Part shown: one piece after another, positions 11,601 through 64,000 of the stretch
How the letters are laid out: the number at the start of each line of letters is the position of its first letter
Numbering within the stretch: position 1 is the stretch's first letter
DNA from: Archangium violaceum
Lineage (GTDB): Bacteria > Myxococcota > Myxococcia > Myxococcales > Myxococcaceae
Reading direction: 5' to 3'
DNA: 64,000 nt
NCBI RefSeq assembly: GCF_016887565.1
Contig: NZ_CP069396.1
Coordinates: forward strand, 7,112,001 to 7,176,000
The notes under the pieces: model-generated
Told to the model about the DNA's origin: nothing
The model's database searches: none
What the model saw: only the letters and a program-made list of their open reading frames with translations
Made by a program: the position numbers and the translations under genes

Positions 11601-14600
11601 GAAGTCCCTCGCGAGCGCCTCGACGGTCCTCCGCTCGTGCACGTTCTCGCTGTACGCCCAGAAGAGCCGCAGGCGTCCCTCGGACACCACTGCGCTGATG
11701 TCCAGCAGGTGGCGGCGCGGCGTCCTCTCCGACCAGGTGGGGCCCACCGGCTCGGTCACCATCGCCAGTGGCGTGCCCTCCGGCAGCACGTTGTCCACCT
11801 GCCCCAGGTAGTTGAAGGACACCTCCGCCTCCGGCAGTGCCCCCAGGCGCGCGGACAGTTCCTCCTCTCGCGACAGGTAGCGCAGCACGCCAAAGCCCAC
11901 GCCTCGCCGGGGAAGGCTCCTCAGCCTCTCCTTCACCGCCTCGAGCCCCGACTCCGGCCCCTGCCCTTCCGCCGTCTCCAGCAGCACCGGATACAGGCTG
12001 GTGAACCAGCCCACCGTGCGCGACACGTCCACGCCGTCCAGGACGTCCTCTCGCCCGTGCCCTTCCAGGTTCACCAGCAGGCTCGCCGCCCCCGTCCACC
12101 GGCGGAACGTCTCCAACAGCGCCGCCAGCAGCACCTCTTCCATCCGCGTCCGCCAGGCGCGCGGCACCTCGTGAATCAGTGCCCGCGTCTCCTCCGCGTC
12201 GAGCTCCACGCTCACCTGCCGCGCGAAGGCCACGGTGTTCTCCCCTCCGTGCCTGTCCACCGGCAGGCGCGTGACGCGCTCCCACGGCAGCCCCAGCCAG
12301 TACGTGGCCTCCTCGCGCATGGCCGGCGTCTGTGCATACGCCTCCAGCCGCTCCGCCCATTGCTGGAAGGACGTCGTCTTCGGCGGCAGACGCACTGGTG
12401 CCCCCGCCTGCAACTGCCGCCACGCCGTGAGCAGATCCACCAGCAGCACCCGCCACGACACCCCGTCCACCGCCAGGTGGTGGATGACGAACAGCAGCCT
12501 CCGAGGCTCTCCGGCCCCCAGCTCGTACAGCACCACTCGCGCGAGCAGGCCGCTGCCCAGGTCCAGCGAGGCCTGGGTCCGGGCGGCATGCGCCTCCAGG
12601 GCAGGGCCACGCGCGGCAGGCTCCAGTCCCGACAGGTCCACCTGCTCCAGCGGGAAGTGTCCCTCATCCCCTCCGTTGCTCTGACTCCAGCCCTCTCCAT
12701 CCCTCGTGAAGCGCAGGCGCAGCGCGTCGTGGTGCAGGCGCAGGTGCCTCAGCGCCCGCTCCAACAGTTGCGCCTCCACCGGCTCATCGAGGCTGAACAG
12801 GAGGGACTGGTTGTAGTGGTGTGGCTCCGGCGACTCCCGCTCGAAGAACCAGCGTTGGATGGGCGTGAGCACCACCGGACCCGTCACCAGCCCCTGCTCG
12901 GCCGCCACCACCGGCGCGGCTCTCGCCACCGTCGCCAGCTTCGCGATCGTCGGATGCTGGAAGAGCTGCTTCGCGGTGACGTGGACTCCCGCCTGCGCGG
13001 CCTTCGAGATGATCTGGATGGCGAGGATGGAGTCGCCCCCCAGCTCGAAGAAGTCATCATGGATGCCCACCCGCTCGTGCCTGAGCACCTGGGCCCAGGC
13101 CTCCGCCAGTGCTCGCTCCGTGGGAGTGCGCGGCGGCTCATGGGCGGTGGGAACCTCGCGTGCCTGCTCCGGCGAGGGCAGCGCCCGGCGATCCACCTTG
13201 CCACTCGTGGTGCGAGGCAGCGCCTCCAACATCACGAAGGCCGCGGGCACCATGTACTCCGGCAGCCGCTCGCGCAGCCGCTCGCGCAGCTCGCGTACCA
13301 CGGGGGCTGGACCGCCCGCCGCGGGGACCACGTACGCCACCAGCCAGGGCTCTCCCTCGGCCCGCTTGCGCAGCACCACCACCGCCTCGCCCACCGAGGA
13401 CTCCGCGAGCAACGCGGACTCTATCTCCCCCAGCTCGATGCGGAACCCGCGCAGCTTCACCTGCTCGTCCGCGCGGCCGAAGAACTCCAACTGTCCGTCC
13501 GCCATCCACCGCACGACATCGCCCGTCTTGTACAGGCGGGCGCCGGGCTCCTCCGAGAACGGATCCGGAATGAAGCGCTCGGCCGTCAGCTCCGGGCGTC
13601 CGAGGTAGCCGCGAGCCACGCCCGCACCACCGATGTACAGCTCTCCTCGCACTCCCACGGCCACCGGTCGCAGGTCCGCGTCGAGCACGTAGGCGCTTGC
13701 CCCCGCCAGCGGCCGGCCAATGGGCGCCACGGGCGCACCCGGTACGCACTCGGTCAGGGTTCCGTAGATGGACACCTCCGTGGGCCCGTACGCGTTGACG
13801 AATCGCCGTCCCACGCCCCAGCGCGCCGGAAGCCTCGGGCCGCACGCCTCGCCCGCCACCATCATCGACTCCAGCGCGGGCAACTCCTCCACCGGCGTCG
13901 CCTCCAGCACCGAGGGCGTGAGCACCGCCGTCGTCACCCGCTCCTCGCGCAACACCCGCAGCAGGTCCGCTCCTGGCATCAACGCCTCGCGCGGCGCCAT
14001 CACCAGCGTCGCCCCGTCGCTCAGCGCACCGTAGATCTCGAAGACGGACACGTCGAAGCTCGCCGAGGCGAACTGCAACACACGCTTGCCCGGCCCGATG
14101 GCCCAGGCCCCTCGCGACGCCTTCACGGTGTTGCTCGCGCCCCGGTGCTCCACCAGCACGCCCTTGGGTTTCCCCGTGGAGCCCGAGGTGTAGATGACGT
14201 ACGCGAGCTGTCCCGGGTGGAGCTTCACTTCGGGTGCCGTCCGCGACGCACGTGCGAGCGACTCGCGCTCCGGCTCCGCGTCGAGCAGCACCCGCCGCGC
14301 ACTTGTCCCCTCCAGCCACGCGGCCGTGCCCTCCCGCACGAGCACCACGGGCGCTCCGCAGTCCTCCAGCAGGGAGCGCAACCGTGCCGCCGGCCAGGAC
14401 GGATCCACCGGCACGTACGCGCCGCCGGCCTTGAGCACGCCCAACATGGCGAAGATGAGCTCCGGCGAGCGCTCCAGGCACAACAGCACCCGCGTCTCCG
14501 CCACCACCCCGAGCCCGCGCAGGTGGTGCGCGAGCTGATTGGCCCTCGTATCCAGCTCGCCGTACGTGAGCCGCTGCTGTCCGAAGCGGATCGCCTCGGC

Positions 14601-17600
14601 CTCCGGGGCCGCCAGGGCCCGCTCCTCGAAGGCACGGTGCAGCAGCGCGGGGGCGTGGCCGGCCTTCCCCGCTCCGCTCCACTCGCGCAGCAGCACCCGC
14701 CGCGCGGCCTCGTCCACCGGGGAGAGCTCACGCAGCCGCTGCTCCGGCCGCGCCACCATCGACTCCAGCAGGTGGCGCAACTGCTCCAGCATCCGCTCCA
14801 CATGCGCCGCGTCGAAGCGCGCACCGTCATACGACAGATGCAACGGCAGCTCGCGTCCGGGCGACGAGATGAGCGTCAGCGGATGATGATCCGCCTCCAG
14901 TGAACGCACATCGCGCACCTCCAGAGAAGGCAGTGACGCGGTGAGCGCGGCGTCCACCGGGTAGTTCTCGAACACCACCAGGCTCTCGAACAGCGGCGTG
15001 CCCGCCGGTACCTCGCTCCAGCGCTGCACCTTCACCAGCGGCGAGTGCTCGTGCTGCCTCATCTCCAGCAACCACGCCTGCAATCCCTTCAGCCACGGGA
15101 TGAGCGGCTCGTCTCCGGCCAGGCGCACGCGCACCGGCAGCGTGTTGATGAACAGGCCCACCATGCCCTCCACCCCGGGCAGCTCCGGCGGACGGCCCGA
15201 GACGGTGGTGCCAAAGACGACGTCCCTCGTCCCCGCGTGATGCCCCAGCAGCAGCGCCCACGCGCCCTGTATCAGCGTGTTGAGCGTCAGCCCATGCTGG
15301 CGCGTGAACGCGTTCAGCGCCTCGGTGGTGGCGGCGGACAGGTGGATCTGCCTCGAGCCCCGGCCCTCCCCCGAAGCCTCCTGACTCGCGGAGAGCCGCC
15401 CCGGATCCGTCGGCTCGGAGAAGCCCGCCAGCGAACGGCGCCAGAAGCGCTCGGACTCCTCCAGTCCTCGCTCCGCGAGCCAGCCGATGTAATCGCGGTA
15501 GGGCCTCGTCTGCTCCACCTGGGGCGTCAGTCCTCGCGAGAGCTGGTCATACTGGACGAACACCTGGCGGATGAGGACGGGAACGGACCACCCGTCCAGC
15601 AGGATGTGGTGGTGGCTGAAGACGAAGCGGTATACCGCCTCTCCCGTGCGCAGCAGCGCCAGCCGGGCCAGCGGCGGAGAGGACAGCTCGAAGCCTCGAC
15701 GGCGGTCGGCCTCCAGCCACGCGGCGAAGCGCGCCTCCTGCTCACCGGGCGGGAGCCCTCGCCAGTCCTCCTGGGTCAGCGGCAGCTCCACCTCCCGAAA
15801 CACCACCTGCAACGGCGCCTCCACGCCCTCCCAGACCGTGGCCGTCCTCAGAATCGGATGTGCGTCCACCACCTGCCGCCACGCCCTCGTGAAGGCCGAG
15901 AGGTCCAGCGTCCCGCGCAGCTCGCACGCGAGCTGGTTGAAGTACACACCGCTGCCTTCCTGGAGGACATGGAAGAGCATGCCCTGCTGGAGAGGAGAGA
16001 GCGGATACAGATCCTCGAGTCCGCGCCGGCCTCGTGCGCCGCCTCGGGCCACCCGCTCCACCACCGCGTCCAGCGCCTGCTGTCCCAATGACGCCAGCGG
16101 GAAGTCGGACGGAGTGAGGACACTCGCCACATCCTCCGCGGTGCAGCGCCCGAGCAGGGCTCGCACGGCATCCAGGAAGCCTCGCGCCAGGGACTCCAGC
16201 GTCTCCCTTCGGTAGAGATGCGTGCCATACGCCCAGGAGACCTGGAGGCGTCCTCCCGAGACGAGGGCATTGATGCCGATCCGGTGGGAGCGGCGGGCCC
16301 GGGGATCCTGCGTCGGTCCCAGGGGCTCGGAGGCCAGGACGAGTGGAGACTCCGCGGGCAGCACGTTGTCCACCTGCCCCAGGTAGTTGAAGGACACCTC
16401 CGCCTCCGGCAACGCACGCAGGCGCGCGGACAGTTCCCCCTCCCGCGACAGGTAGCGCAGCAGGCCGAAGCCCAGGCCCCGCCGCGGAATGCGCCGCAGC
16501 GCCTCCTTCACGGCCTTGAGACCCGACTCGGGCGTCCTGCCGTCACCCGTCTCCAGCAGCACCGGATACAGGCTGGTGAACCAGCCCACCGTGCGCGACA
16601 CGTCCACGCCTTCCAGGACGTCCTCTCGCCCGTGCCCTTCCAGGTCCACCCGCAGACAGGGCGCGCCCGTCCACCGGCGGAACGTCTCCGCCAGCGCCGC
16701 GAGCAGCACCTCGTCCACGCGCGTCCGCCAGGCACGCGGCACTTCCTGAAGCAGCGCGCGGGTCTCCTCCACGTCGAGCTCCACCCGCACTACGCTCGCG
16801 GCGCCCTCGGTGTCCTCCCCTCCCGGGAGCTCCACTGGCAGGCGGGAGATGCGCTCCCATGGCAGCCCCAGCCAGTACGCGGACTCTTCCCGCACGGCCG
16901 GCGTCTGGGCGTAGGCCTCCAATCGCTCCGCCCACTGCTGGAAGGACGTCGTCTTCGGTGGCAGCCGCACCGCGGCCCCCGACTGGAGCTGTCGCAACGC
17001 CGTGAGCAGATCCACCAGCAGCACCCGCCACGACACCCCGTCCACCGCCAGGTGATGGATGGCGAGCAGCAGCCTCCGAGGCTCTCCCGCTCCCATCTCG
17101 TACAGCGCCGCTCGCGCGAGCAGCCCATTACCCAGCTCCAGCGAGGCCTGGGTCCTCGCGGCATGCGCCTCCAGGGCCGGGCCACGCGCGGCCGGCTCCA
17201 GTCCAGACAGGTCCACCCGCTCCAGCGGGAAGTGCCCCTCGTCACCCCCGTTGGATTGATGCCAGCCCTCGCCGTCCCTCGTGAAGCGCAGGCGCAGCGC
17301 ATCGTGGTGCAGGCGCAGGTGTCTCAGCGCCTGTTCCAACAACCCCGCGTCCACCGGCTCGTTCAGCGAGAAGAGCAGCGCCTGGTTGTAATGGTGCGAG
17401 CCCGGCCGCTCCTGTTCGAGGAACCAGCGCTGGATGGGCGTGAGCACCACCTGGCCCGTCACCAGCCCCTGCTCGGCCACCACCACCGGCGCTGCTCCCG
17501 CCACCGTGGCCAGCTTCGCGATCGTCGGATGCTGGAAGAGCTGCTTCGCGGTGACGTGGACTCCCGCCTGCGTGGCCCTCGAGATGATCTGGATAGCGAG

Positions 17601-51564: not shown

Positions 51565-52341
51565 TCAGCGGCGGGTCAGCACCATGGGACCATCGCCGGT
51601 GATGGCCACCGAGTGCTCGACGTGCGCGGCGAGCCGGCGGTCCACGGAGACGGCCGTCCACCCGTCGTCGAGCACCTCGATGTCCTCGCTGCCCACGTTG
51701 ACCATGGGCTCGATGGCCAGGACCATTCCGCGCTTGAGCCGGAGCCCCTTGCCGGGCTCTCCGAAGTTGGGGACGGAAGGCATCTCGTGCATGAAGCGGC
51801 CGATGCCGTGACCACAGAAGCTGGTCACCACGGAGAAGCCGTTCTTCTCGACATGGCTCTGGACGGCCCAGCCAATGTCTTCCAGCCGGTTGCCGTGCAC
51901 GCAGGCGGCGATGGCGCGCTCCAGGGACTCGCGCGTCACCTGGATCAACTTGCGCGCCTCCTCGCTGACGTTCCCGACCGGGATGGTCCGGGCCGAGTCG
52001 GCACAGAAGCCGTCCTTGTAGCAGGCGAAGTCGATCCCGATGATGTCCCCGTCCTTGAGGACGACGCTCTTGCTGGGGATGCCGTGGACCACCACCTCGT
52101 TCACGGAGGTGCAGAGCACCGCGGGATACGGGGGCGCTCCCCGGGGCGCATACCCCAGGAACGCCGAAGTGGCCCCGGCCTTGGTCATCACGCCGTTGGC
52201 GATCTCGTTGAGCTCCCAGGTGGACACGCCAGGGCGGCAGGCGGCTTCGACGGCATCGAGGACGTCGGCGACGATCAGGCCCGTCCGCCGCATCTTCGCG
52301 AGGTCATCGGCACTCTTCAGGGTAATGGACAAGGTGCTCAC
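51565..52341 (-). CDS. map: Methionine aminopeptidase, type I; candidate self-resistance copy
   Basis: A 258-residue type I methionine aminopeptidase, which removes the initiator Met from new proteins. All five metal ligands are in place: Asp104 (IGID), Asp115 (CADSA), His178 (CGHGIG), Glu211 (AIEPM) and Glu242 (HVEH); the substrate-side His86 (VVVHGIP) and Trp228 are kept too. It has no N-terminal extension. The GTG start at 52341 follows a markedly A/T-rich 60-base leader. It sits 153 bases after the AT-ER gene, same strand, at the end of the trans-AT run. Most bacterial map genes lie in ribosomal or translation loci, so this location is unusual. Known precedent: producers of MetAP inhibitors such as fumagillin carry extra MetAP genes in the cluster. 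A resistance role is therefore plausible; a housekeeping copy is the alternative. Confidence 0.93.
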   Translation of the reverse strand: MSTLSITLKSADDLAKMRRTGLIVADVLDAVEAACRPGVSTWELNEIANGVMTKAGATSAFLGYAPRGAPPYPAVLCTSVNEVVVHGIPSKSVVLKDGDIIGIDFACYKDGFCADSARTIPVGNVSEEARKLIQVTRESLERAIAACVHGNRLEDIGWAVQSHVEKNGFSVVTSFCGHGIGRFMHEMPSVPNFGEPGKGLRLKRGMVLAIEPMVNVGSEDIEVLDDGWTAVSVDRRLAAHVEHSVAITGDGPMVLTRR

Positions 52342-52494: not shown

Positions 52495-54771
52495 TTACGA
52501 GAGCGCGCGGGAGTATTCCCCCAATCTGTCGCACAGGAGTCCAGCCGTCTCCTTCATGAGCAGCTCACCGAGCGCGTCCGGGTGACGGTTCCTCCAGTTC
52601 TCGAGCCCCGTGCCCTTGACCCACTGATTGAACGCGCCCATGGCGGGGCCGGTGTGCACCTGGTAGTTCACCCGGTCGTTCTTGTCTCCCTTCATGGCCA
52701 GCCGCATCGTGTGAACGAAGTACCAGCGGAAGACGAGCGCCATCTTGTGCTTGGGATTGACCTCGGCCTTGTCGATCTGCTGGGGCATCTCGCGCAGGTA
52801 GTAGTTGCGGGTCTCCTCGAACACCTCACCGAAGCTGCGCCCGAAATACTTTCCTTCGATCTGCTGGCGGGTCTTCGGATCGATCTGCTCCCAGGCGCCA
52901 TGATTGCGCCACAGCTCATGGAGCTTGTTGGCCCTGGGAGGGAAGAGCACGCCCCGGCTCAGCACCTGGACGCGCGCGCCGATCTCGAACATGTCCCCCG
53001 CGGGCGCGTAGTCCGTGTCCTGGACGTTCATGTCGGCCAGCATGTCCTTGACCTCGTCGCTGGTCCCGGCCTCGACGGTGCACTGGTTGATGGAGCCCGT
53101 GAGGATGAACTCCGCCCCGAGGATGAACGCGGACGCGGCCGCCTCCGGGCTGCCGATGCCCCCGGCGGTTCCCACCCGCACCCGGCGCGAGTAGCCCCGC
53201 TGCCGGCAGATGGCATCACGCTGCCGCATGATGGTCGGCAGGAGCACCGTGACGATTCCCATGTCGGTATGGCCGCCGGAGTCCGCCTCCACGCAGAGGT
53301 CATCCGCCATGGCGATCTTCTGCGACAGCTCGGCCTGCTCGCGGCTGACGGCGCCCGAGTCCACCAGCTGCTTCACGAGCCGCTCGGCGGGCGGATTGAG
53401 GAAGAGCTCGGCGACCTCCGGGCGGGAGATCTTCGCCATGACGCGGTGCTGGCTCGTCACGTTCCCCTGCTTGTCCCGCGAGAGACCCTTCAGCCGGAAC
53501 TTGACCAGCGCGGGCGTCAACTGCGTGTAGGCGGCCGCCTCGATGTTCTTGACGCCATAGCGCAGCAACAGGTCGACGGCCTCCATCTCCGCCTTCGGGT
53601 TGACCAGGTTGCTGAGCAGGTTCACGCCATAGGACTCGCCGCGCTGGAGGTGGGCCTGGATGTACTGGAGGGCGTCCTCGATGACGGGCAGCCGGAGACC
53701 CCCGGTGCCCAGGAACCCCATCGACCCCGCCTTGCCCATGCGGACGACGAGCTCCTTCGAGGCGATGCCCTTCACCATCCCGCCGGTCACGTACGCATGC
53801 CGGAGGTTGTAGTCCCGCCTGAACTCCGCCGAGCCCAGCTGCTCCGGCGTGACGAACGGCCTGCCCGTCCGGGCCGCCGCCTTGCTCTCACTGGCGGGAG
53901 CCGGCTCCTCCTTCACGACGAGCGGCGTCGCCTTCTTCTGGATGGCCTTGACCAGCTTCGTGAGGACATCCCCCGGGCCGATCTCCCGGAACTCGGACAC
54001 GCCCACGCCCATCAGGTAGCGGATGCTGTCCAGCCATTGCACGGAAGAGCTGATCTGCCGCTTCAGGTTCGTCTTGAGCTCGGAGCTCTTGTAGGGCCGC
54101 GCCAGGACGTTCGAGATGACGGGAATCTTCAGCTCGGAGAAGGTCATCCGCTCCAGGGTCTCCTGGATGGCGTCCTCCGCCTCGCGCATGTAGCGCGAAT
54201 GGAACGCGGCGCTGACGTTCAGCGGAATGTAGGTGACACCCAACTCCTTGAAGACGGCGCCCGCGTCGATGATCGCCTGCCTGGGACCCGACAGCACCGT
54301 CTGCGAGGGACTGTTGAAGTTGGCGATGTCGATGGAATCGAGCTGGCGCTCCTTGAGGATCGCCTGGATCTCCGCCACCTCGCGGTTCACGACGGCGGCC
54401 ATGCCACCGCCGGAGGCCTGACTCATCAGCTCGCCGCGCTTCTTCACCAGGCGGAGGCCGGTCTCGAAGTCGAACGCTCCCGCGGCGAACAGGGCGTCGT
54501 ACTCGCCCAGGCTGTGCCCGAGCAGGTAATCCGGAGGCGTGGGGTTCTCCTCGAGCGCGTTCAGGTAGCTGAAGGCATTCACGACGTAGAGGGCGGGCTG
54601 GGTGTACTGCGTCTTGCCGAGCACGCCCTCGGGATCCTCCAGGCACAGCCGTTTGATCGAGTAGCCCAGGATGTCGTCGGCCTTGCGCGTCAGCTCGACA
54701 TGCCGCTCGAACAGGCCACGCCCCATGCCCTTCACCTGGGAGCCCTGCCCCGGAAACATGTACGCTCTCAT
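52495..54771 (-). CDS. Trans-acting acyltransferase fused to PfaD-type enoyl reductase (AT-ER)
   Basis: A 758-residue bifunctional protein. Residues 1-290 are a malonyl-CoA acyltransferase (FPGQGSQ, GHSLGE with Ser87, and AAFHSRYM), which loads malonyl onto carrier proteins in trans. After a short linker, residues about 315-758 are an FMN-dependent enoyl reductase of the PfaD/nitronate-monooxygenase-like family (MGFLGTGGL, GVNLLSNL, EADSGGHTD, GTAGGIGSP). The same fusion is known in trans-AT clusters such as bacillaene (PksE). It lies six bases after the preceding AT gene with an AGGGAG ribosome binding site, so it belongs to the operon. It probably supplies all extender units and saturates selected double bonds of the polyketide. 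Confidence 0.95.
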   Translation of the reverse strand: MRAYMFPGQGSQVKGMGRGLFERHVELTRKADDILGYSIKRLCLEDPEGVLGKTQYTQPALYVVNAFSYLNALEENPTPPDYLLGHSLGEYDALFAAGAFDFETGLRLVKKRGELMSQASGGGMAAVVNREVAEIQAILKERQLDSIDIANFNSPSQTVLSGPRQAIIDAGAVFKELGVTYIPLNVSAAFHSRYMREAEDAIQETLERMTFSELKIPVISNVLARPYKSSELKTNLKRQISSSVQWLDSIRYLMGVGVSEFREIGPGDVLTKLVKAIQKKATPLVVKEEPAPASESKAAARTGRPFVTPEQLGSAEFRRDYNLRHAYVTGGMVKGIASKELVVRMGKAGSMGFLGTGGLRLPVIEDALQYIQAHLQRGESYGVNLLSNLVNPKAEMEAVDLLLRYGVKNIEAAAYTQLTPALVKFRLKGLSRDKQGNVTSQHRVMAKISRPEVAELFLNPPAERLVKQLVDSGAVSREQAELSQKIAMADDLCVEADSGGHTDMGIVTVLLPTIMRQRDAICRQRGYSRRVRVGTAGGIGSPEAAASAFILGAEFILTGSINQCTVEAGTSDEVKDMLADMNVQDTDYAPAGDMFEIGARVQVLSRGVLFPPRANKLHELWRNHGAWEQIDPKTRQQIEGKYFGRSFGEVFEETRNYYLREMPQQIDKAEVNPKHKMALVFRWYFVHTMRLAMKGDKNDRVNYQVHTGPAMGAFNQWVKGTGLENWRNRHPDALGELLMKETAGLLCDRLGEYSRALS

Positions 54772-54777
54772 CTCGGT

Positions 54778-55761
54778 CTAGCTCCCTGAAATCATCGACC
54801 TGGCGCGAGCCAGCGTCTTGAGGTCCTGCCCGAACGGCGTGAGCGTCGGGCAGGTATTCGCCCCACCCCGCGCCGGCAGGATCTGCTTGATGAAGGTCGA
54901 CAGCGTCCCGGACGGTCCGACGTCCAGATAGAAATGGCTTCCCTGGCGCTCCAGGTGCTGGAGGGTCCGGAGGAACTCGATCCGCCCCCTGAACGCATGC
55001 CAGAAATGATCGTCGGCCATGGACTCGACGACGCCCGCCCTGGCGCACGAGACGAACGGGAACCTCGGCGGGTTGTAGCGCACGGTCGACAGGAAGCCCT
55101 GGAACCCGACCCTCACCGACTCCAGCGAGGAGGAATGGAAGCCATACTCGACGGGCAGGCGCTGGTGGAGAATGTCCCGGCGCTTGAGGAACTCCTCCGC
55201 CCGCGACAGTCCTGACTCCCCGCCTGACACCACGAAGTGGGAATCCCAACTCACGGAGGCCAGCTCGCAATTGCCATGGAGGGCGGGCTCGGACTCGTAC
55301 AGCGAGGCGGCATGAATCACCGCGATCATCCCGCCCCGCTCACACCGGCCCTCCAGGAGCCGGGCGTTCTCCACCAGCAGCTCGACACAGTCCTCCAGGC
55401 TCACGATCCCGGAGACGGCCGCGGCGGTGACCTCACCCAGGCTCGAGCCCAGGACGAACGACGGCCGGAGGCCCTCGTCGAGCAACACCTGGGTGAGCGC
55501 ATACTCCACCATGAAGATGGCCTGGTGGGTGATGCGCGTGCGCACGAACGGCTCCGACTTCTTGCGGCGCTCGTCGTAGATGTGCTGGAGGACCGACTCA
55601 CCGAGGTGGCGCTCGACGAGCCCGTCGAGCTCCTGCATCACCCGTCGGAAACGAGCGTCCTCCAGGTAGAGCTCACGGCCCATCTGGTAGTACTGCGAGC
55701 CCTGCCCCGAATACATGAACACGAGGGGCAGCTGGCTTTGACTGGAATCTCCCGGGCGCAC
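54778..55761 (-). CDS. Discrete acyltransferase-fold protein of trans-AT PKS (AT or proofreading hydrolase)
   Basis: A 327-residue free-standing acyltransferase-fold protein. It has MYSGQGSQ near the start, the nucleophile elbow GSSLGE with Ser107, and YGFHS holding the catalytic His. The residue before the nucleophile is Ser instead of the His of classical GHSLGE malonyl transferases (as seen in the AT-ER partner). Deviations at this place and sequence clades separate malonyl transferases from acyl hydrolases that clear stalled chains in trans-AT systems, so this may be the proofreading enzyme, while the AT-ER does the loading. Start is GTG at 55761 with AAGGAAG upstream, 19 bases after the ECH2 stop. 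Confidence 0.88.
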   Translation of the reverse strand: MRPGDSSQSQLPLVFMYSGQGSQYYQMGRELYLEDARFRRVMQELDGLVERHLGESVLQHIYDERRKKSEPFVRTRITHQAIFMVEYALTQVLLDEGLRPSFVLGSSLGEVTAAAVSGIVSLEDCVELLVENARLLEGRCERGGMIAVIHAASLYESEPALHGNCELASVSWDSHFVVSGGESGLSRAEEFLKRRDILHQRLPVEYGFHSSSLESVRVGFQGFLSTVRYNPPRFPFVSCARAGVVESMADDHFWHAFRGRIEFLRTLQHLERQGSHFYLDVGPSGTLSTFIKQILPARGGANTCPTLTPFGQDLKTLARARSMISGS

Positions 55762-55780
55762 GTTTGGCTTCCTTCTGGGC

Positions 55781-56527
55781 TCAGGCGTTTCCGAACAGCG
55801 TCTCGATCCGCTCGCGCACTTCCGGCTGCGAGAACGTGAGCTCGTGCATCCTCAATTCCTTGCGGATGCACTCCGTCAGGTCCGCTTCGATCGCGCTGCT
55901 GAAGTGTTTCTTGAGCGTGACCAGCGCGAGCCGCGGCTTCTCCACCAGCTCGCGAGCGAGCTTCATGGCGGTGGAGACGACCTCGTTCTTGTCGACGATG
56001 ATCGCCCCGGCGCCCCGCTCCTTCAGCTCCGCGCCATGGTAGTTCCTCGCGGTGAACAGCATCTCCCGGCCCAGGGTGTCACCGAACCGCTTCGGGATGA
56101 TGAACGTCGAGCCGAAACCTGGCGTGAACCCATACTTCATGAAGTTGGTGCTGTAGAGACACTGGGTGCCCATCACGAGGATGTCCGCGTAGCTGCCCAG
56201 GGCCAGGCCGCCTCCCAGGGCATGCCCCTGCATGGCGGAGATGACCGGGACCTCGCACCGGAGCAGGAGGTCGTGGATGTGCCCATCGGTGAAGACGGCC
56301 TCACCCGAGTAGATCTTCAGCAGCTCCTCGCGGGTCCCTCCGCAGCAGAAGTAGTTCTCGAAGCCCCGGAGGACCACCGCCTTGACGGTCTTGTCCTTCT
56401 GGATCTCGTCGAAGGTCTTGAGCAACCCCGAGGTCAGCTCCTTCGAGAACGTGTTCTTGCTCTCCCGATCCTCCATGACCACGGTGGCGATGCCATCCTG
56501 CCGCTGCAAATGGACCACGTCTCTCAT
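55781..56527 (-). CDS. ECH2-type enoyl-CoA hydratase-like decarboxylase (beta-branching)
   Basis: A 248-residue crotonase-fold protein resembling the ECH2 members of HMG-synthase cassettes (PksI, TaY, CurF-ECH2). In that pathway it decarboxylates the 3-methylglutaconyl-ACP to yield the beta-methyl branch. Seen: the crotonase core with oxyanion-hole regions FCCGGTREELL and GHALGGGLALG, and a central KYGFTPGFGSTF stretch. The order in the operon, directly after ECH1 with a 10-base gap, is the usual one. The alternative, an ordinary fatty-acid crotonase, is unlikely next to HMG synthase, donor ACP and decarboxylating KS genes. Confidence 0.9.
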   Translation of the reverse strand: MRDVVHLQRQDGIATVVMEDRESKNTFSKELTSGLLKTFDEIQKDKTVKAVVLRGFENYFCCGGTREELLKIYSGEAVFTDGHIHDLLLRCEVPVISAMQGHALGGGLALGSYADILVMGTQCLYSTNFMKYGFTPGFGSTFIIPKRFGDTLGREMLFTARNYHGAELKERGAGAIIVDKNEVVSTAMKLARELVEKPRLALVTLKKHFSSAIEADLTECIRKELRMHELTFSQPEVRERIETLFGNA

Positions 56528-56537
56528 CTTCGGTATC

Positions 56538-57314
56538 TCACGTGCCTTCGGGGTCCTTCACGTCCCACGGAAACAGCCGCCGCTCGACGAAGTCGCGGAT
56601 GTCCTTCTTGACCTCCGGCAGCTCCGAGAGCCTGCTGATCTCCGCCACGGCCATCCGCTCGGTCTCTTCCGTGATCATCCACATGTCACGGAAGAACCGT
56701 TTGGTGTTGCCGATCGTCGAGCTCTTCAAGCGCGTCAACCGCAGGGCCCACTGGCGGATCATCTCATCGGGCTTGTCACTGACCTCGTCCACCAGGTTCA
56801 TCTCGAAGGCCCTGCGGGCCTGGACGGGCATCGTCGTCAGCGTCATCCGATAGGCATTCTGGAAGCCCACCCGCCGGATGAGATAGGGCGTCACGCACGC
56901 CGGCAGCAGGCCCCACAGCGTCTCGGAGAGGCTGAACTGCGAGCGGGGCGTCGCCACGACGAGGTCACTCGCCACCACGAAGCCCACCCCGCCCGCGACC
57001 ACCTGACCGTCCACGCTGGAGATGACCGCCCTGGGGATCATCGCGAGCCGCCGGATCGTCTCCATGTACCGGGCGAACATGGTGCCTTCCCGCGAATGCG
57101 CCTCGGTGGGCTCCGCGAAGTCCCGCCCCGTACAGAACACGCCATCGCGGCCCTGCAGGATGATCAGCCGGGAGTCGGCATCGCGTTCGATCTCGTCCAG
57201 CTCGAGGTTCAACTCGTGGAGCAGCACCCGGTCGATCTTGTTGCCCGACTCGGGCCGGTTCAGCACGATGGCGCGACCGTAGTCGAAACGCCTGACGGAA
57301 ATAGACTCATACAT
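56538..57314 (-). CDS. ECH1-type enoyl-CoA hydratase-like dehydratase (beta-branching)
   Basis: A 258-residue crotonase-fold protein matching the ECH1 members (PksH, TaX), which dehydrate the HMG-ACP intermediate. I chose the ATG at 57314 (MYESISVRRF) because it begins at the domain boundary; the open frame to 57341 lies inside the KS gene. Seen: the oxyanion-hole regions FCTGRDFAEP and GQVVAGGVGFVVASD. The start overlaps the end of the KS gene by eight bases, which implies translational coupling, and the ECH2 gene follows after 10 bases. Known for the pathway: ECH1 and ECH2 work one after the other on the same carrier. Confidence 0.9.
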   Translation of the reverse strand: MYESISVRRFDYGRAIVLNRPESGNKIDRVLLHELNLELDEIERDADSRLIILQGRDGVFCTGRDFAEPTEAHSREGTMFARYMETIRRLAMIPRAVISSVDGQVVAGGVGFVVASDLVVATPRSQFSLSETLWGLLPACVTPYLIRRVGFQNAYRMTLTTMPVQARRAFEMNLVDEVSDKPDEMIRQWALRLTRLKSSTIGNTKRFFRDMWMITEETERMAVAEISRLSELPEVKKDIRDFVERRLFPWDVKDPEGT

Positions 57315-58590
57315 CGCCCGGCCCTCGCGTCCCGAACGCAATGCAGCTGTTGATGCCGCCGAAGCCGAACGAGTTGCTCAGCGCCACCTGGATCCGGACA
57401 CGCTCCGCGACCGGCCCGCTGAACCGGCAGACCGTGTCGATCGGCTGGCGCAGGTTGAGGTTCGGATGGACGAACCCATGCTCCATCTGCGTCACACAGG
57501 CGATCGCCTCGATGACACCCGCGGAGAACAGGCAGTGGCCCGTGAGTCCCTTGGTCGAGTTGATCCACACCCTGGGCGTCTGGTCCCCCAGGACGGCCCT
57601 GATCGCCCGGACCTCGGTCTTGTCCCCCAGGGGGGATGCCGAACCATGGGCGTTGATGTAGTCGACCTGCTCGGGCCGGAGGTTCGCGCGGGCCATGCAC
57701 TGCTGCATGACGCGGATCTCGCCCGCCTCATTCGGGTCGGCCAGCCGGTTGCCATCGAGCCGCAGCGCGCCCCCCAGCAGCTCCGCCTTCCCAGGGACCC
57801 CCCGCCCCTTCGCCGAGCCCGCCGTCTCCAGGATGAGGCACCCGCTGCCCTGGCCGTAGATGAAGCCCTCGTGCTCCTGGTCGAAGGGGCGGCAGGCCAG
57901 CTCGGGTGAGTCGCGGAAGCGCCGTCCACCCATGGCGCCCACGTTGAAGAAGCCCTGCAGTGCCACCGGCGACAGGTCGCACAGGGCGCCGACGACCACG
58001 CAGGCGTCCAGCAGCCCCAGTTGGAGCAGCTGGGCGGCCTTCAGGATGGCCACGTTCCCGCTCGCGGAGGCACCGCCAACGGTGAAGCCCTCGCCGTGCA
58101 GTTGCAGAACCTCGCTGAGGGTGCCGACATGGTCGGTCTCGAGCCCATGCAGGACGTACCGCGGCGACAGGTACTCCGGCCCCTTGCCGTACTTGGCGAA
58201 GGCGTCGAAGTGGAACCGCTGCATCGAGCCCTCGGCCGCCACGACGACCCCGATTCGCTCGGGGTCGATGGGCGCCTCGCCGAGCCGCGCTTCCTTCCAG
58301 GCCTGGAGCGCACCGAGCACCGAGCACTGGATGGGGAGCGGCGCCCGCTGCGCGCTCCTGCGGGCCCGCTCCAGCACGGGAGGTGGCAACCCCGCGAGTG
58401 CCGGGAGGCGCTGCTCGAACGAGAAGTCCTTGAGCATCGCACCGATGTTGACGGGCCCCGCGGACGCGGAGTCTTGCTGGATGAACCCGACTCCGCTGCG
58501 ACCCGCCTCGAGCGCGGCCCGGAGCTCCTCGATCGAGCCACCAATCGAGCAGACCACGCCCATGCCGGTAATGACAATCTTCTCGCTCAT
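57307..58590 (-). CDS. Decarboxylating ketosynthase-like protein (active-site Cys replaced by Ser)
   Basis: A 427-residue ketosynthase-fold protein of the type found in every HMG-synthase cassette (PksF, TaK, CurC). Its role is to decarboxylate malonyl on the donor ACP to give acetyl-ACP. The fold is complete, with the His motifs INAHGSAS and TKGLTGHCL and a C-terminal FGFGG, but the condensing cysteine is replaced: the active-site stretch reads GGASASGN with Ser175 in the Cys position. This substitution is the hallmark of the decarboxylase group. It lies nine bases after the donor ACP gene and overlaps the ECH1 gene. Confidence 0.93.
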   Translation of the reverse strand: MSEKIVITGMGVVCSIGGSIEELRAALEAGRSGVGFIQQDSASAGPVNIGAMLKDFSFEQRLPALAGLPPPVLERARRSAQRAPLPIQCSVLGALQAWKEARLGEAPIDPERIGVVVAAEGSMQRFHFDAFAKYGKGPEYLSPRYVLHGLETDHVGTLSEVLQLHGEGFTVGGASASGNVAILKAAQLLQLGLLDACVVVGALCDLSPVALQGFFNVGAMGGRRFRDSPELACRPFDQEHEGFIYGQGSGCLILETAGSAKGRGVPGKAELLGGALRLDGNRLADPNEAGEIRVMQQCMARANLRPEQVDYINAHGSASPLGDKTEVRAIRAVLGDQTPRVWINSTKGLTGHCLFSAGVIEAIACVTQMEHGFVHPNLNLRQPIDTVCRFSGPVAERVRIQVALSNSFGFGGINSCIAFGTRGPGDV

Positions 58591-58599
58591 CTCCTGTCG

Positions 58600-58860
58600 C
58601 TACCTGGAACCCTTGCTCTGGCTCTTCTCGTACAGCTGATCCACCAGCCCCTGGATATTGGAGACACCAGCCAGGTCGACCAGCGGGATGTTGATACCAA
58701 GGGCCTCCATGGACATCGTCGTGATCTCGACCCGATCGATCGAGTTGGCGCCCAGGTCCTTGAGCTGGCAATCGACCCGGATCTGGTCCGCCGACACGTC
58801 CGACAGGACCTCCAGGATGTTCTTCTTCACGACCTCGAAAATCTCATTCTTCGTCATCAC
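58600..58860 (-). CDS. Donor acyl carrier protein of HMG-synthase cassette
   Basis: An 86-residue free-standing ACP. The phosphopantetheine attachment serine is Ser40 in LGANSIDRVEI, the pattern typical of the donor ACPs that carry malonyl/acetyl for HMG synthase. Two adjacent ATG codons (58860 and 58857) can serve as start; GAGGAG sits upstream and better suits the second. The gene is followed after nine bases by the decarboxylating KS that acts on it. The 101-base gap before it is the largest within the cassette and contains an 18-base hairpin. Confidence 0.94.
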   Translation of the reverse strand: MMTKNEIFEVVKKNILEVLSDVSADQIRVDCQLKDLGANSIDRVEITTMSMEALGINIPLVDLAGVSNIQGLVDQLYEKSQSKGSR

Positions 58861-58892
58861 ACACTCCTCGACCCGGTACCCTTGAAAGCCTT

Positions 58893-58910
58893 GCTCGCGC
58901 GGCCGCGAGC
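58893..58910. other. Hairpin between HMG synthase and donor ACP genes
   Basis: GCTCGCG/CGCGAGC, a perfect 7-bp stem with a four-base loop, in a 101-base intergenic gap. No T run follows on the minus strand, so it is not a classical terminator; it could protect or separate the mRNA of the downstream cassette genes. Confidence 0.4.
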
Positions 58911-58961
58911 CTACCGGTCACATGGTTACAGTCAATCGGTTTTGACAAGACTTGAACGGGG

Positions 58962-60224
58962 TCACTCGAGCCACTCGTATTTCCTGTGGAACTCACGAAT
59001 CTCTCTCAGCACGAGCCGCCGGGCGCCCGGCCGCCGCGCCGGAACACCGGGCAGCACCTCGCGATCCACCTGCACGTTCCGGGTGCCGAACTCCACCATC
59101 TTGCTGATGGTCAGCAGGTGCTCGTACTGGGGCATCGACAGCTCATGACGCAGCTCCAGCCCGTGCCCGATGTCGAAGCGCCGCTGGCGCTCCTGGCCCT
59201 CGCGCGTCACCACGCCGCTGTAGAACTCCGAGCAGCACCCGGAGCCATACGAGAAGACTCCGATGCGCTTGGGCCGCCCGAACTCGCCATGGTCGATGGT
59301 GCTGGCGAGCGACATGAACACCGTCGCTCCCATGATGTTGCCCACCCGCTGGCAGTAGCGCAGACCGGGGAGGACGCGCCGCTGGAAGTCTTCCTCGATC
59401 TCGTTCGTGGCGGCCTTGCAGAACTTGCGCATCATCTTGCGATGCGCGCCTTTGACCATTCCACCGAAGGGCGTATGGGAAGACAGGTACTGGAAGGAAT
59501 TGCGATAGTCCGCGTCCTCCACCCGCCGCTGGTACTCCAGGAAGGCCTGCTCGTTGCAGTCCAGGTACGACATCAGGGACAGATCGGAGTCACCCGCCTC
59601 GCTGTCCGGCACGGGGCGGCAGGTATCCATCACCTCGTAGCCGTAGTAGCCGTTGGCCCCGACATCCACCTGATACACGTGGGGCGTCTCGCTCACGAGC
59701 ACCGCCACCGCACCGGCGCCCGAGCTCGGCTCGGAGAAGGACCACTCCATGTTCACGGCGGAGCTGTGCTCGACGACCTTGAAGCGCGAGATGTCGGTGG
59801 CCACCACCAACGCCTTGGCCCCCGGTGACGTCTGGGACAGGATGAAGTTGACGGCCATCTGGAACCCGGCGGTGCCCGAGTAGCAGGCCTGCTTGAGCTC
59901 GAAGAGCCGGCAGTGGCGATTCAGCCCCAGGTAGTGATGGATATACGTGCTCATCGACTTGCCGAAGTCGATTCCCGACTCCGAGCACGTGATGAGCAGC
60001 TCGATGCGGTCCTTCTCGGCCGGGTCGAGCGCCTCGACGATCGGCATCGCCGCGTTCACCGCGTAGCTGACCGGGTCCTCCCAGGGCAGCGCGACGGTCT
60101 TCTGCTTCATCAAGAGGTTCTCGAACCTCGCGTTGTCGAGGCCGCGGTACTGGGCCAGCTTCTGGACATCGACGAAAGCCGAGCCCCCGAATACGTTCAT
60201 CGCCTCGATGCCTACGTTCACCAT
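58962..60224 (-). CDS. 3-hydroxy-3-methylglutaryl-ACP synthase-like enzyme (beta-branching)
   Basis: A 420-residue HMG-CoA synthase homologue of the polyketide type (PksG, TaC, CurD). It joins acetyl from the donor ACP to the beta-ketone of a chain on the PKS ACP. Active-site residues are all present: Glu82 in TCSESG, Cys114 in LKQACYSG and His250 in SSHTPFG. I chose the ATG at 60224 (MVNVGIEAMN), which matches the family start; the frame is open to 60287 but that part overlaps the PKS stop. It lies 59 bases after the PKS gene and heads the beta-branching block. Primary-metabolism HMG-CoA synthase is unlikely, given the full PKS cassette around it. Confidence 0.95.
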   Translation of the reverse strand: MVNVGIEAMNVFGGSAFVDVQKLAQYRGLDNARFENLLMKQKTVALPWEDPVSYAVNAAMPIVEALDPAEKDRIELLITCSESGIDFGKSMSTYIHHYLGLNRHCRLFELKQACYSGTAGFQMAVNFILSQTSPGAKALVVATDISRFKVVEHSSAVNMEWSFSEPSSGAGAVAVLVSETPHVYQVDVGANGYYGYEVMDTCRPVPDSEAGDSDLSLMSYLDCNEQAFLEYQRRVEDADYRNSFQYLSSHTPFGGMVKGAHRKMMRKFCKAATNEIEEDFQRRVLPGLRYCQRVGNIMGATVFMSLASTIDHGEFGRPKRIGVFSYGSGCCSEFYSGVVTREGQERQRRFDIGHGLELRHELSMPQYEHLLTISKMVEFGTRNVQVDREVLPGVPARRPGARRLVLREIREFHRKYEWLE

Positions 60225-60283
60225 GTCGCTCTCTCTTCGAATCTGATCTGGCCCACTCGGCCGTTTCCGATTTCTTCCCAAAA

Positions 60284-63200
60284 TCACACGCTGCGAGCTT
60301 CGGTCGAGTCCCTCGCGGTCTCGCGAGCGAGCATCGCCGCGGCATCGATCCGTGGCTCGATGCCATACAACCTGCGGCAGACCTCGACCATCATCCCGAG
60401 CGTCTCTTCATCCTCGAACATCGCGAAATGATCCGGCGCCGCCGTCCTGTGGACGGTCAGGTTGGGGAGGAAGTCCCGCCACCGTTCCACACAATCGCTT
60501 GTCGCGTGGTACCGGTTCTGCTCGGCGAGCTCCTCCACGGTGGCCAGCTCCGGCCGGAAGAACCATTCCTTGTCCCTGCGGGAGAAGTAGTGGCACTCCA
60601 CCTCGCCGGGACGAGGCAGGGGAGCGACCGAGTAGCGCCCCATGGAGGTGATGTTCGCCTCGGAGATGGCGGAGAACTTCTGGATCGCCGCCCTGAGCTC
60701 ATCCTCGGAGTACTTGAGGCCCCGCTCGAGCCCCACCTGGACCAGGAAGGGCAGGAGGTCCTCGTTCCTGGGGGAACGCGCCATGAAGGTCTTCAAGTCA
60801 TCGGGCCTGGCCAGGCCGCTCATGTTGAGGATGTTCAGGAACGTCAGGGCGAGGTTGCACTTCCGCGAGATCCGCGAGGAGACGGGTGGGAAGGGCGTAT
60901 CGACGAGGACGATGCTCGTGACGCTCCGTCCGGCGAGTTGCAGCTGTCTGGCCACCTCGTACGCCAGCGCGCCGCCCTGGGAGTAGCCTCCGAGCTGGAA
61001 GGCGCCCTGCCCCTTCAGCTTCATCAGGATGTCGCGGTAGTGGCTCGCCATCTCGACGAGGTCGTCGAACGGCTTCTGCGAGTCCCGGACGCCGCGAGAC
61101 TGGACCGCATGGAAGGACAGGTCACCGCCCAGCTTCCGGGCGAACGGCACGTACATCTGGACGGTGCCGAGCGCGGCGTGGAACCAGACGGTCGACGCGA
61201 GCCCGTCTCCCCGGCGAAGAAGCTCCACCTCTCGTGGCAGGACGGACCGGGACGAGCCACTCTCCCCCCGTGACCGGACCCGCTGCACCAGCTCCCCAAC
61301 GGTCTGGCACTCCTGGACATCGGAGAGCTCCAGGCGGACGGACAACGTACTGTCGATCAGATCCACCAGCTGGGCCGTGAGCATGGAGTCGATACCCTGC
61401 TCCCTCAAGACCGCGGAGCCGGTCAGCTGCTCACGGGGTATCGCGGTGACCTGAGCGAGCAGTCCCACCACCACCGACCCGGCGTCCTTGTCGACGCCCT
61501 TCTCCACCTGCGGGGGCGGTGCCTCGATCATGGCGGTGGAGAGCCGTTCGGCTGCCACCGTCCGCACGGCACGGCCGGGCGGGATCCAGTAGCGCTCTCG
61601 CAGGAAGGGGTAGCCCGGCAGGGGCACGCGCCGGACGCGCCGGCTCCCGTAGAGCTCCTCCCAGGGGATCTGGACACCCTTCACCCATAGCAGCGCCAGC
61701 TTCGCGAGGTTTCGCCGCTGCAAGCTGTTCTGGATGATGAACCGGCTCTCCTCCTCTCCGAGGAGCAGCTTCCACTCCTTGAGCGCCGCATCGTCCACGG
61801 CGCCCCGGAAGATGCCTCCACCGGAGGTCTCGGTCTGGCCCCGGTCATCCAGATAGCGCTCGAGCTTCTCGACCAGGTCCGGGAGCGAGGACGCGACGAA
61901 GGCCACGCGATGCGTCATCGCCTCGCGTCCGCACTGGAGGGCGAAGGCAACCTCCTCGAGGGTGATCTCCGAGAAGCCCCACGACAGGTACTCCTGGCCC
62001 TTCAGGAAGCGGAGCAACTGTCGGGCGAGCATCTGAAGCTGGGGGGCCTTCCGGGTCGAGAGCACGATGACCTGCTCCGCCGCTCCGGCCGGCGTCTGCG
62101 CGGGCCGCCCCGCGTCGACATACTCCTCCAGGATGGCGTGGGCGTTCATGCCGCCGAAGCCATAGTTGTGGATTCCGACACGCCGCGGGACGCGCTGACC
62201 GCCCTGGTACTTCGCGGGCCATGCCTCGGTCCTGTCCAGCACTCGCACCGGAAGCTCGCCGTCCGCCTCGTCCCAGTTCAGCTCCTGGAGGTTCAGGATC
62301 CGGGTGAGCGTGTTGTTCCTGAGCGACAGGACGGACTTGATGAGTCCGACGACGCCCGACGCGGCGCCCAGGTGCCCCAGGTTGCCCTTGATCGTTCCCA
62401 ACCCGATGGCGCCGGACGGACGCGCCGAGAACACGTGCTGATAGGTCTTCAGCTCCATGACGTCGGTGAGCTGATTGCCCGTGCCCTGCGCCTCGATGTA
62501 GTCGATGTCTCCCGGCTGGAGACGCGCATCGCGGAGGGCTTCCCGGATGACCTCCTGGTGGGAGGTGGCGTTCGGCGCCATCAGGTACACGCCCTTGCCG
62601 CCGTGCTCGACCGCGACGCCCTTGATGACGCCGTAGATCGTGTCGTTGTCCCGGATGGCGGAGGAGAGCCGCTTGAGCAGGACCAGGCCCATACCTTCGC
62701 CATTCAGATGGCCGGAGGCCCCGCGGTCGAAGGGCCGGGTGACTGGCTCGTTCGTGAGCATCCCCAGCTTCCTGTTGAGGATGAACAGGCTGGGGGTCAG
62801 CAGGACGTTGACGCCGCCGACGAAGGCCAGCTCGATGCTCCCGTGCCGGAGCTGCTCGACGGCGAGACTCAGCGCCGTGAACGAGCCGGAGCAGGCCGTG
62901 TCGAGCACCATGCTGGGGCCCCGCCACGAGAAGTAGCGGGAGACCCTGTTGGCCAGCATCGAGTGGGCATTTCCGGTGTTCATGTAGCCGTCGAGGGCAT
63001 GCCCGGAGTCCTTGAGCAGCTCCACGTAGTCCTGCTTCTCGACGCCGACGAACAGGCCGACGCGCTTGTTCTGCAAGCGGGCGCGCGTGTAGCCCGCGTT
63101 CTCCATCGTCTCCCAGGTGACCTCCAACAGCATCCGGTGCTGGGGGTCCATGAAGGTCGCTTCGCGCGGCGAGATGTCGAAGTGCAACGGATCGAAGCGA

Positions 63201-64000
63201 TCGATGCCCTCCAGGAACGCGCCATGGGTGCAATCCGTCTTGTTCTCCTCCTTCTGCGGATCGCCCCAGTAGTCCTGCCAGCGCCAGCGCGAGTCCGGCA
63301 CCTCCGAGATGGAAGACCGCTCGTCGACGAGGTTGCGCCAGAACTCGCTCACGCTCGCGGCGCCCGGAAACCGGCCTCCGATGCCGATGATGGCGATGGC
63401 CTCGTCGCTCTCCGGGCTCTCCGTGCCCGAGCTGACGGAGTACGTGGGCGCACGAGCCTCGCTCCGGGCTTCCGTGGCCACGACCTCGACCTTCGCCACC
63501 ACCGGCTGCGCGGTCGTCTCCACCTCGTTCAGCCCGAAGTGCTCGCGCAGCTCCTTCCCGTACTTCCTGGCGAGGAAGCCCACCAACGCGCCGAGCGTCG
63601 GATGCTCCAGGAAGGTGGAAGGCGCCAGCTTGATGAACCGGAACTGGCGCGAGAGCTCGTTGGAGAAGCCGGTCAGGGTGATCGAATCGAACCCGTACTC
63701 ACTCAGGTTCTTCTCCGGCTCGATCTCACCCGGCTCGACCCTCAGGACCTCGGCGGTCATGGCCGCCAGCGTCCTGGCCAACGACTCCTCGACCTTCCTC
63801 GCCGCCCCGGGGCCGGTCACGGCCTCGGGCTTCGCGGCCGCCGCCAGCAACCCAGGCCCGGCCTCGTCGCGGGACTTCTTCTTGATGTACTGAGCCTCCC
63901 AATCCAGGACGAGGGGGTTCGCGCGCTGCTCGAGGGCGCCGTCGTACTCGGCGGAGGTGATCTCGCCCCGGCGCAGGAGGGACTCGAGGTTCTCCCGGCC
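60284..64000 (-). CDS. Trans-AT PKS, terminal part: ACP-KS0-ACP-TE (5' end outside window)
   Basis: The last 1238 residues of a polyketide synthase; the frame stays open to the window edge, so the gene continues to the right, and a TTG at 63850 is only an apparent start. From the edge: an unassigned linker, ACP (about 70-140, Ser in GFDSITL), KS (about 190-640), ACP (about 830-900, GIDSML), TE (about 930-1230, GYSQGG). No AT domain is present, so ATs act in trans. The KS keeps the Cys (DTACSGS) and the second His (GNLGHL) but has EAQGTG where EAHGTG is expected, so it should not elongate (KS0). The TE releases the chain as acid or macrolactone; which one cannot be seen. The first ACP may be the acceptor for the beta-branch. 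Confidence 0.94.
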   Translation of the reverse strand, partial: GRENLESLLRRGEITSAEYDGALEQRANPLVLDWEAQYIKKKSRDEAGPGLLAAAAKPEAVTGPGAARKVEESLARTLAAMTAEVLRVEPGEIEPEKNLSEYGFDSITLTGFSNELSRQFRFIKLAPSTFLEHPTLGALVGFLARKYGKELREHFGLNEVETTAQPVVAKVEVVATEARSEARAPTYSVSSGTESPESDEAIAIIGIGGRFPGAASVSEFWRNLVDERSSISEVPDSRWRWQDYWGDPQKEENKTDCTHGAFLEGIDRFDPLHFDISPREATFMDPQHRMLLEVTWETMENAGYTRARLQNKRVGLFVGVEKQDYVELLKDSGHALDGYMNTGNAHSMLANRVSRYFSWRGPSMVLDTACSGSFTALSLAVEQLRHGSIELAFVGGVNVLLTPSLFILNRKLGMLTNEPVTRPFDRGASGHLNGEGMGLVLLKRLSSAIRDNDTIYGVIKGVAVEHGGKGVYLMAPNATSHQEVIREALRDARLQPGDIDYIEAQGTGNQLTDVMELKTYQHVFSARPSGAIGLGTIKGNLGHLGAASGVVGLIKSVLSLRNNTLTRILNLQELNWDEADGELPVRVLDRTEAWPAKYQGGQRVPRRVGIHNYGFGGMNAHAILEEYVDAGRPAQTPAGAAEQVIVLSTRKAPQLQMLARQLLRFLKGQEYLSWGFSEITLEEVAFALQCGREAMTHRVAFVASSLPDLVEKLERYLDDRGQTETSGGGIFRGAVDDAALKEWKLLLGEEESRFIIQNSLQRRNLAKLALLWVKGVQIPWEELYGSRRVRRVPLPGYPFLRERYWIPPGRAVRTVAAERLSTAMIEAPPPQVEKGVDKDAGSVVVGLLAQVTAIPREQLTGSAVLREQGIDSMLTAQLVDLIDSTLSVRLELSDVQECQTVGELVQRVRSRGESGSSRSVLPREVELLRRGDGLASTVWFHAALGTVQMYVPFARKLGGDLSFHAVQSRGVRDSQKPFDDLVEMASHYRDILMKLKGQGAFQLGGYSQGGALAYEVARQLQLAGRSVTSIVLVDTPFPPVSSRISRKCNLALTFLNILNMSGLARPDDLKTFMARSPRNEDLLPFLVQVGLERGLKYSEDELRAAIQKFSAISEANITSMGRYSVAPLPRPGEVECHYFSRRDKEWFFRPELATVEELAEQNRYHATSDCVERWRDFLPNLTVHRTAAPDHFAMFEDEETLGMMVEVCRRLYGIEPRIDAAAMLARETARDSTEARSV

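Follow-up and report, generated by a model that had tools for sequence, protein, structure and literature searches.

The trans-AT polyketide synthase cluster around a β-branching cassette in Archangium violaceum most likely makes archangiumide

The β-branching cassette analysed here lies in a 64,000-nucleotide stretch of DNA (the window; positions 7112001–7176000 of the Archangium violaceum genome, a single contig of 13.21 Mb). Reading of the DNA to the right of the window places it in a trans-AT polyketide synthase (PKS) cluster that forms an island of about 50.06 kb (genome 7164411–7214468). With its cassette and its trans-acting AT/ER pair, this cluster most likely makes archangiumide, an assignment made because the assembly line and the molecule are colinear, module for module. 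The product, previously given as unknown, is thereby largely resolved. Archangiumide is, to our knowledge, the first macrolide with an allene in its ring. The molecule has been known since 2021, and its cluster was probably also reported then. It is an allenic macrolide from A. violaceum SDU8 (Hu et al., Org. Lett. 2021, 10.1021/acs.orglett.1c00265, as cited in PMC10835656), and the reported formula is C19H26O6 (PMC11855526).

The cassette comprises seven genes, all on the minus strand and arranged head to tail between positions 52495 and 60287 of the window, with gaps of 6–101 bp or overlaps according to the open-reading-frame list and the family scans. The preliminary description had proposed a complete β-branching gene set in one operon, and all seven of its genes are indeed found, in the same direction and closely spaced. 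Scans for promoters and terminators gave no signal above that of shuffled sequence. The HMG-ACP synthase (HMGS; 58962–60287) matches PksG over its full length (4yxq, E = 3.7e-206) as well as CurD (5kp5), retains the active-site region ELKQACYSG and is probably of the acetyl (TaC) type; its conserved part and likely start lie at 60224, the end given for the cassette in the preliminary description. It is the only HMGS of the β-branching type in the genome (two others are about 36% identical), and none was found in five other genomes of the same genus. The stand-alone donor ACP (58600–58860; 86 aa) scores 82.1 bits with NF005502 (cut-off 79) and matches CurB (5kp7, E = 1.4e-10). The decarboxylating ketosynthase (KS; 57307–58590; NF005490, 482 bits, above the cut-off) has Ser in place of the active-site Cys within the motif GGASASGN (ASASG) and keeps both His residues (HGSA and KGLTGH). 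The HMG-ACP dehydratase ECH1 (56538–57341), for which an ATG at about 57314 is the likely start, matches 4nnq (E = 7.9e-64) and PksH (3hp0, E = 4.2e-39) and shows 51.5% identity to its counterpart in the G054 cluster discussed below; its NF005498 score of 213.9 bits is under the cut-off of 250 for that model. The methylglutaconyl-ACP decarboxylase ECH2 (55781–56527) matches PksI (4q1i, E = 3e-74), CurF (2q2x, E = 2.3e-62) and NF005496 (327 bits). HMGS, donor ACP, Cys-replaced KS, ECH1 and ECH2, together with DSxxxxxW-type ACPs in a module that lacks a ketoreductase (KR), constitute an HMGS (HCS) cassette.

The two remaining genes of the cassette differ in their predicted roles. The AT-ER protein (52495–54771) is a fusion of a FabD-type malonyl-AT (residues 1–280; TIGR00128, 333.9 bits) and a PfaD-type trans enoyl reductase (ER; residues 308–746; TIGR02814, 687.7 bits, above the cut-off). 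Its AT half retains GHSLGE and the malonate-binding Arg, and aligns at 51–55% identity with the second AT in each of two related clusters. The separate AT-like protein (54778–55761) lacks the malonyl-AT signature (GHSxG and Arg) that was sought in it: GSSLGE replaces GHSLGE, and Asn stands at the position of the malonate-binding Arg. It is 37–38% identical to the first AT of the same two clusters, both of which also lack the GHSLG His and this Arg, compared with 23–26% identity to malonyl ATs. In the AT pairs of trans-AT systems, the first type is usually read as a proofreading acyl hydrolase and the second as the malonyl loader. The lone AT-like protein is more likely to be such an acyl hydrolase than a malonyl transferase because the typical His and Arg of the latter are missing. 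The AT assigned to this position previously is therefore present as a gene, while its residues are those of an acyl-hydrolase-like protein.

The assembly line is encoded, in order of transcription, by an E2-ACP loading protein (genome 7212858–7214078; an E2-type acyltransferase fused to an ACP), PKS1 (7200013–7212831), PKS2 (7180548–7200032), a luciferase-like monooxygenase (7179399–7180541; PF00296, 1.4e-43) and PKS3 (7172284–7179516; 2410 aa), which is the last PKS before the cassette. The loading protein is without a lipoyl domain and carries a DHRALNG motif; a genome-wide search returned no relatives, and the only relative in the family (34% identity) is found in G065, inside a cis-AT cluster. 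PKS3 reaches position 67516 of the extended window (the same numbering carried on to the right). Contrary to the earlier statement that all PKS modules lie to the right of the window, its C-terminal part, with ACP9, KS10, the last ACP and the thioesterase (TE), sits inside at 60284–64000 on the minus strand; KS9 and the FMO oxygenase fall to the right of 64000. There is no AT domain in PKS1–3 and a FabD-type AT in the AT-ER protein, the organization of a trans-AT PKS.

The domain content gives ten modules: KS-KR-ACP (module 1), KS-ACP-ACP-ACP (module 2), KS-DH-KR-ACP (module 3), KS-DH-ACP-ACP with a break between the KS and the DH (module 4), KS-DH-ACP (module 5), KS-DH-KR-ACP (modules 6 and 7), KS-KR-ACP, its KR region long and in two parts (module 8), KS0-FMO-ACP (module 9) and KS0-ACP-TE (module 10). 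KS1–KS8 retain the Cys-His-His triad, and in KS9 and KS10 the HGTG motif has become QGMG and QGTG, respectively (KS0), which therefore leaves eight elongations. A DH-KR-ACP-KS unit of PKS2 is tandemly duplicated with 94–96% DNA identity (PKS2 nucleotides 6678–10932 and 11196–15450; extended window 72583–81355), making modules 6 and 7 (about 95% identical) and KS7 and KS8 near copies. The module with tandem ACPs of the branching type that was to be sought beyond 64000 is module 2: only 3 of the 15 ACPs in the cluster carry DSxxxxxW, and all three are its tandem ACPs (LDSIVGVEW, LDSIIGVEW and MDSIIGVEW), with no KR between them and KS2. In KS3, the expected acceptor of the branched chain, the active Cys is preceded by Ala; among KSs that accept β-branched chains, 94% have Ala or Gly at this position (PMC7619045).

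The structure of archangiumide was rebuilt from the building blocks of its total synthesis, in which chitaric acid supplies C1–C6, a valerolactone-derived sulfone C7–C12 and a lactate/propyne piece C13–C18, with the methyl group placed on C15 (PMC10835656). The resulting skeleton, CH3-CH(O)-CH(OH)-C(CH3)=CH-CH=C=CH-CH2-CH2-CH2-CH=CH-[tetrahydrofuran with two OH]-C(O)O, has an atom count of C19H26O6, matching the reported formula. The chain predicted from the modules is built from acetyl and eight malonyl units (C18) with one β-methyl at C15 (C2 + 16 + 1 = C19), bears a C17 hydroxyl and oxygens at C2, C4/C5 and C16, and is released by the TE. In the corresponding map, the C17 oxygen falls to module 1, the C15 methyl to module 2, C13 to module 3, C11 to module 4, C9 to module 5, C6=C7 to module 6, C4=C5 to module 7 and the C3 hydroxyl to module 8; no carbon remains for modules 9 and 10, precisely the pair with KS0. 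The C15 methyl is thus on the β-carbon of module 2, and the oxygen set by the KR-only module 1 is the lactone oxygen. KR1 has the Asp of B-type KRs (D-OH), and C17 of archangiumide was built from methyl D-lactate; KR8, which is without this Asp, is of the A-type (L-OH) and matches the L configuration at C3 of D-chitaric acid. Three oxygenases (the FMO, the luciferase-like enzyme and a P450) face three non-acetate oxygens (at C2, C4 and C16). Elongation count, branch site, KR stereotypes and oxygenase count all agree with archangiumide. Of the earlier expectation of at least one β-methyl or exomethylene branch, the β-methyl stands, at one site confined to the ACPs of module 2; an exomethylene is dispensable, as the matching product carries an endo C14=C15(CH3) alkene. 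The earlier suggestion that the ER may act on the branch finds no support: archangiumide keeps an alkene there, and the carbons that require a trans ER are C9–C10, where the ER is better placed.

Several features count against archangiumide. Modules 4 and 5 have a DH and no KR although C11 and C9 require ketoreduction, so that these reductions have to be ascribed to a KR outside the two modules, and known domains do not account for the allene-forming step. The best candidate for this step is the module-4 DH, in which Met replaces Pro of HxxxGxxxxP (HxxxGxxxxM) and which is followed by the tandem ACP. Modules 4–5 and the P450, the parts assigned with least certainty, leave room for a congener or relative of archangiumide from the same assembly line, for example a non-allenic or otherwise oxidized C19 macrolide, should this strain be another than the known producer. 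The absence of a β-branching HMGS from the five other genomes of the genus is in keeping with such a product. We nevertheless regard a congener as improbable: carbon count, branch position, the three oxygenases and the two KR types fit archangiumide itself.

The FMO raises a further question, as its closest solved relative in the PDB is the PKS oxygenase domain 8odw (568 bits), which we take to be of the Baeyer–Villiger type, whereas archangiumide has no inserted ester. Combined with the presence of the PfaD-type ER, this relationship would suit an unrelated trans-AT polyketide of similar length, with Baeyer–Villiger oxygen insertion by the FMO and an ER that reduces the branch. That reading is very improbable: it would make a coincidence of the agreement in branch site, chain length and stereochemistry with a known metabolite that probably comes from the same genus. 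Among named alternatives, ripostatin was considered on account of an E2-like loading protein, which we presume its pathway to have, and was dropped because archangiumide explains the number of carbons, the site of the branch and the oxygenases; rowithocin, with its 18 modules, is too large. Archangiumide remains the preferred product.

The sequence itself shows the gene and domain content, the KS0 states, the branching ACPs, the KR types and the borders of the island; from these and the structure we infer the product and the following order of steps and site of action of each oxygenase. The E2-like acyltransferase would load acetyl onto its own fused ACP to start the chain, and module 1 would set the C17 hydroxyl. 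The Ser-KS would decarboxylate the malonyl-donor ACP to acetyl-donor ACP, HMGS would add the acetyl group to the C15 ketone on the DSxxxxxW ACPs of module 2, and dehydration by ECH1 followed by decarboxylation by ECH2 would give C15(CH3)=C14. Modules 3–8 would complete the C18 chain, with modules 3–4 setting up the allene and the trans ER reducing C9–C10. At the PKS2/PKS3 junction, the luciferase-like enzyme may hydroxylate C2 before the KR of module 8 reduces C3; the in-line FMO of the following KS0 module may then oxidize C4=C5 by epoxidation, for which MmpE is the precedent, and attack of the C2 hydroxyl on C5 would form the tetrahydrofuran with a C4 hydroxyl. The TE would lactonize the chain onto the C17 hydroxyl. 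The P450 would supply the C16 hydroxyl, the third extra oxygen and the one left over after the luciferase-like enzyme and the FMO.

Both oxygenase systems at the end of the line have parallels in mupirocin biosynthesis. MupA acts on a β-ketoacyl ACP at a KS0 junction prior to ketoreduction (PMC10952193), and MmpE provides a precedent for epoxidation by a KS0-oxygenase mini-module (PMC7619045). The present cluster shares with MupA/MmpA the trans luciferase-like α-hydroxylase and the KS0 at a subunit junction, here KS9 across the junction of PKS2 module 8 and PKS3 (a MupA-type α-hydroxylation bimodule), and with MmpE the KS0-ACP-oxygenase mini-module. In contrast to mupirocin, the two systems are consecutive at the end of the line, ahead of a second KS0 module with the TE, and the oxygenase is an FMO-like domain (PF00743) rather than class A as in MmpE.

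Two related clusters resemble the cassette itself. The G056:C3 cluster, which we take from its gene order to be of the myxovirescin (ta) type, shares the two-AT set, KS, ECH1 and ECH2, HMGS (its two tandem copies show 65% and 50% identity, in that order) and a luciferase-like protein (52% identity); it differs in having two HMGSs and two donor ACPs and in its PKS modules and gene order. Its two tandem ACP-HMGS pairs (G056:C3:233665–237672; a relative of genus g23) form the myxovirescin arrangement. The G054:C13 cluster, presumably corallopyronin-like (cor) by its gene order, shares both ATs, the ER, donor ACP, KS (49% identity), HMGS (54–55%), ECH1 and ECH2, but in the order AT-AT-ER-ACP-KS-HMGS-ECH1-ECH2 and with other PKS modules. 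A separate large NRPS-PKS cluster with an embedded luciferase-like domain occupies 2637–37304 of the window on the minus strand; the scan of its last gene, which encodes 5988 residues, covered roughly residues 1–4000.

Beyond the left end of the cassette lie a rare type of type I methionyl aminopeptidase (MetAP; 51565–52341, minus strand; TIGR00500, 313 bits), at the edge of the PKS island, and on its far side a cytochrome P450 (50239–51498, plus strand; PF00067, 1.2e-32; haem motif FGGGIHYCLG), which may belong to this pathway as the C16 hydroxylase. G005 has the left flank, a MetAP and the right flank directly joined, with neither the island 7164411–7214468 nor the P450. Between the two flanking genes in G001–G003, neither MetAP nor the cluster was found, so MetAP, P450 and cluster are late arrivals in the lineage of this genome and G005. 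Either the 50.06 kb cluster went in next to MetAP in this genome, or G005 lost it.

The position of MetAP raises the idea that the cluster product inhibits type I MetAP and that this copy confers self-resistance. The rare type occurs in 4 of the 96 genomes of the family (this one, G005, G032 and G081) and has a five-residue insertion ahead of the conserved Cys, in a loop lining the substrate pocket. In all four, the housekeeping map gene is a short remnant, the remnants being partly different; here it is reduced to about 43 codons (adk-map-infA, ribosomal operon; genome 5558745–5558873). We know of no antibacterial target of archangiumide. A resistance role is possible because the producers of bengamides have altered MetAPs, which are thought to account for their resistance (PMC9228497). 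Three of the four genomes with the rare MetAP are without such a cluster, so self-resistance is unlikely and stays a lead only. A cluster-specific role for MetAP is also weakened by its standing alone at the empty site in G005 and by the G032 and G081 copies lying elsewhere among ordinary neighbours.

The β-branching cassette is in itself of the textbook kind. What the analysis adds is a likely tie between an unannotated cluster and a known, unusual molecule, archangiumide. Formation of the allene would be narrowed to modules 3–4, with their variant DH and KR-less tandem ACP, and the steps to the tetrahydrofuran would take a concrete order, an α-hydroxylation bimodule followed by an in-line oxygenase.
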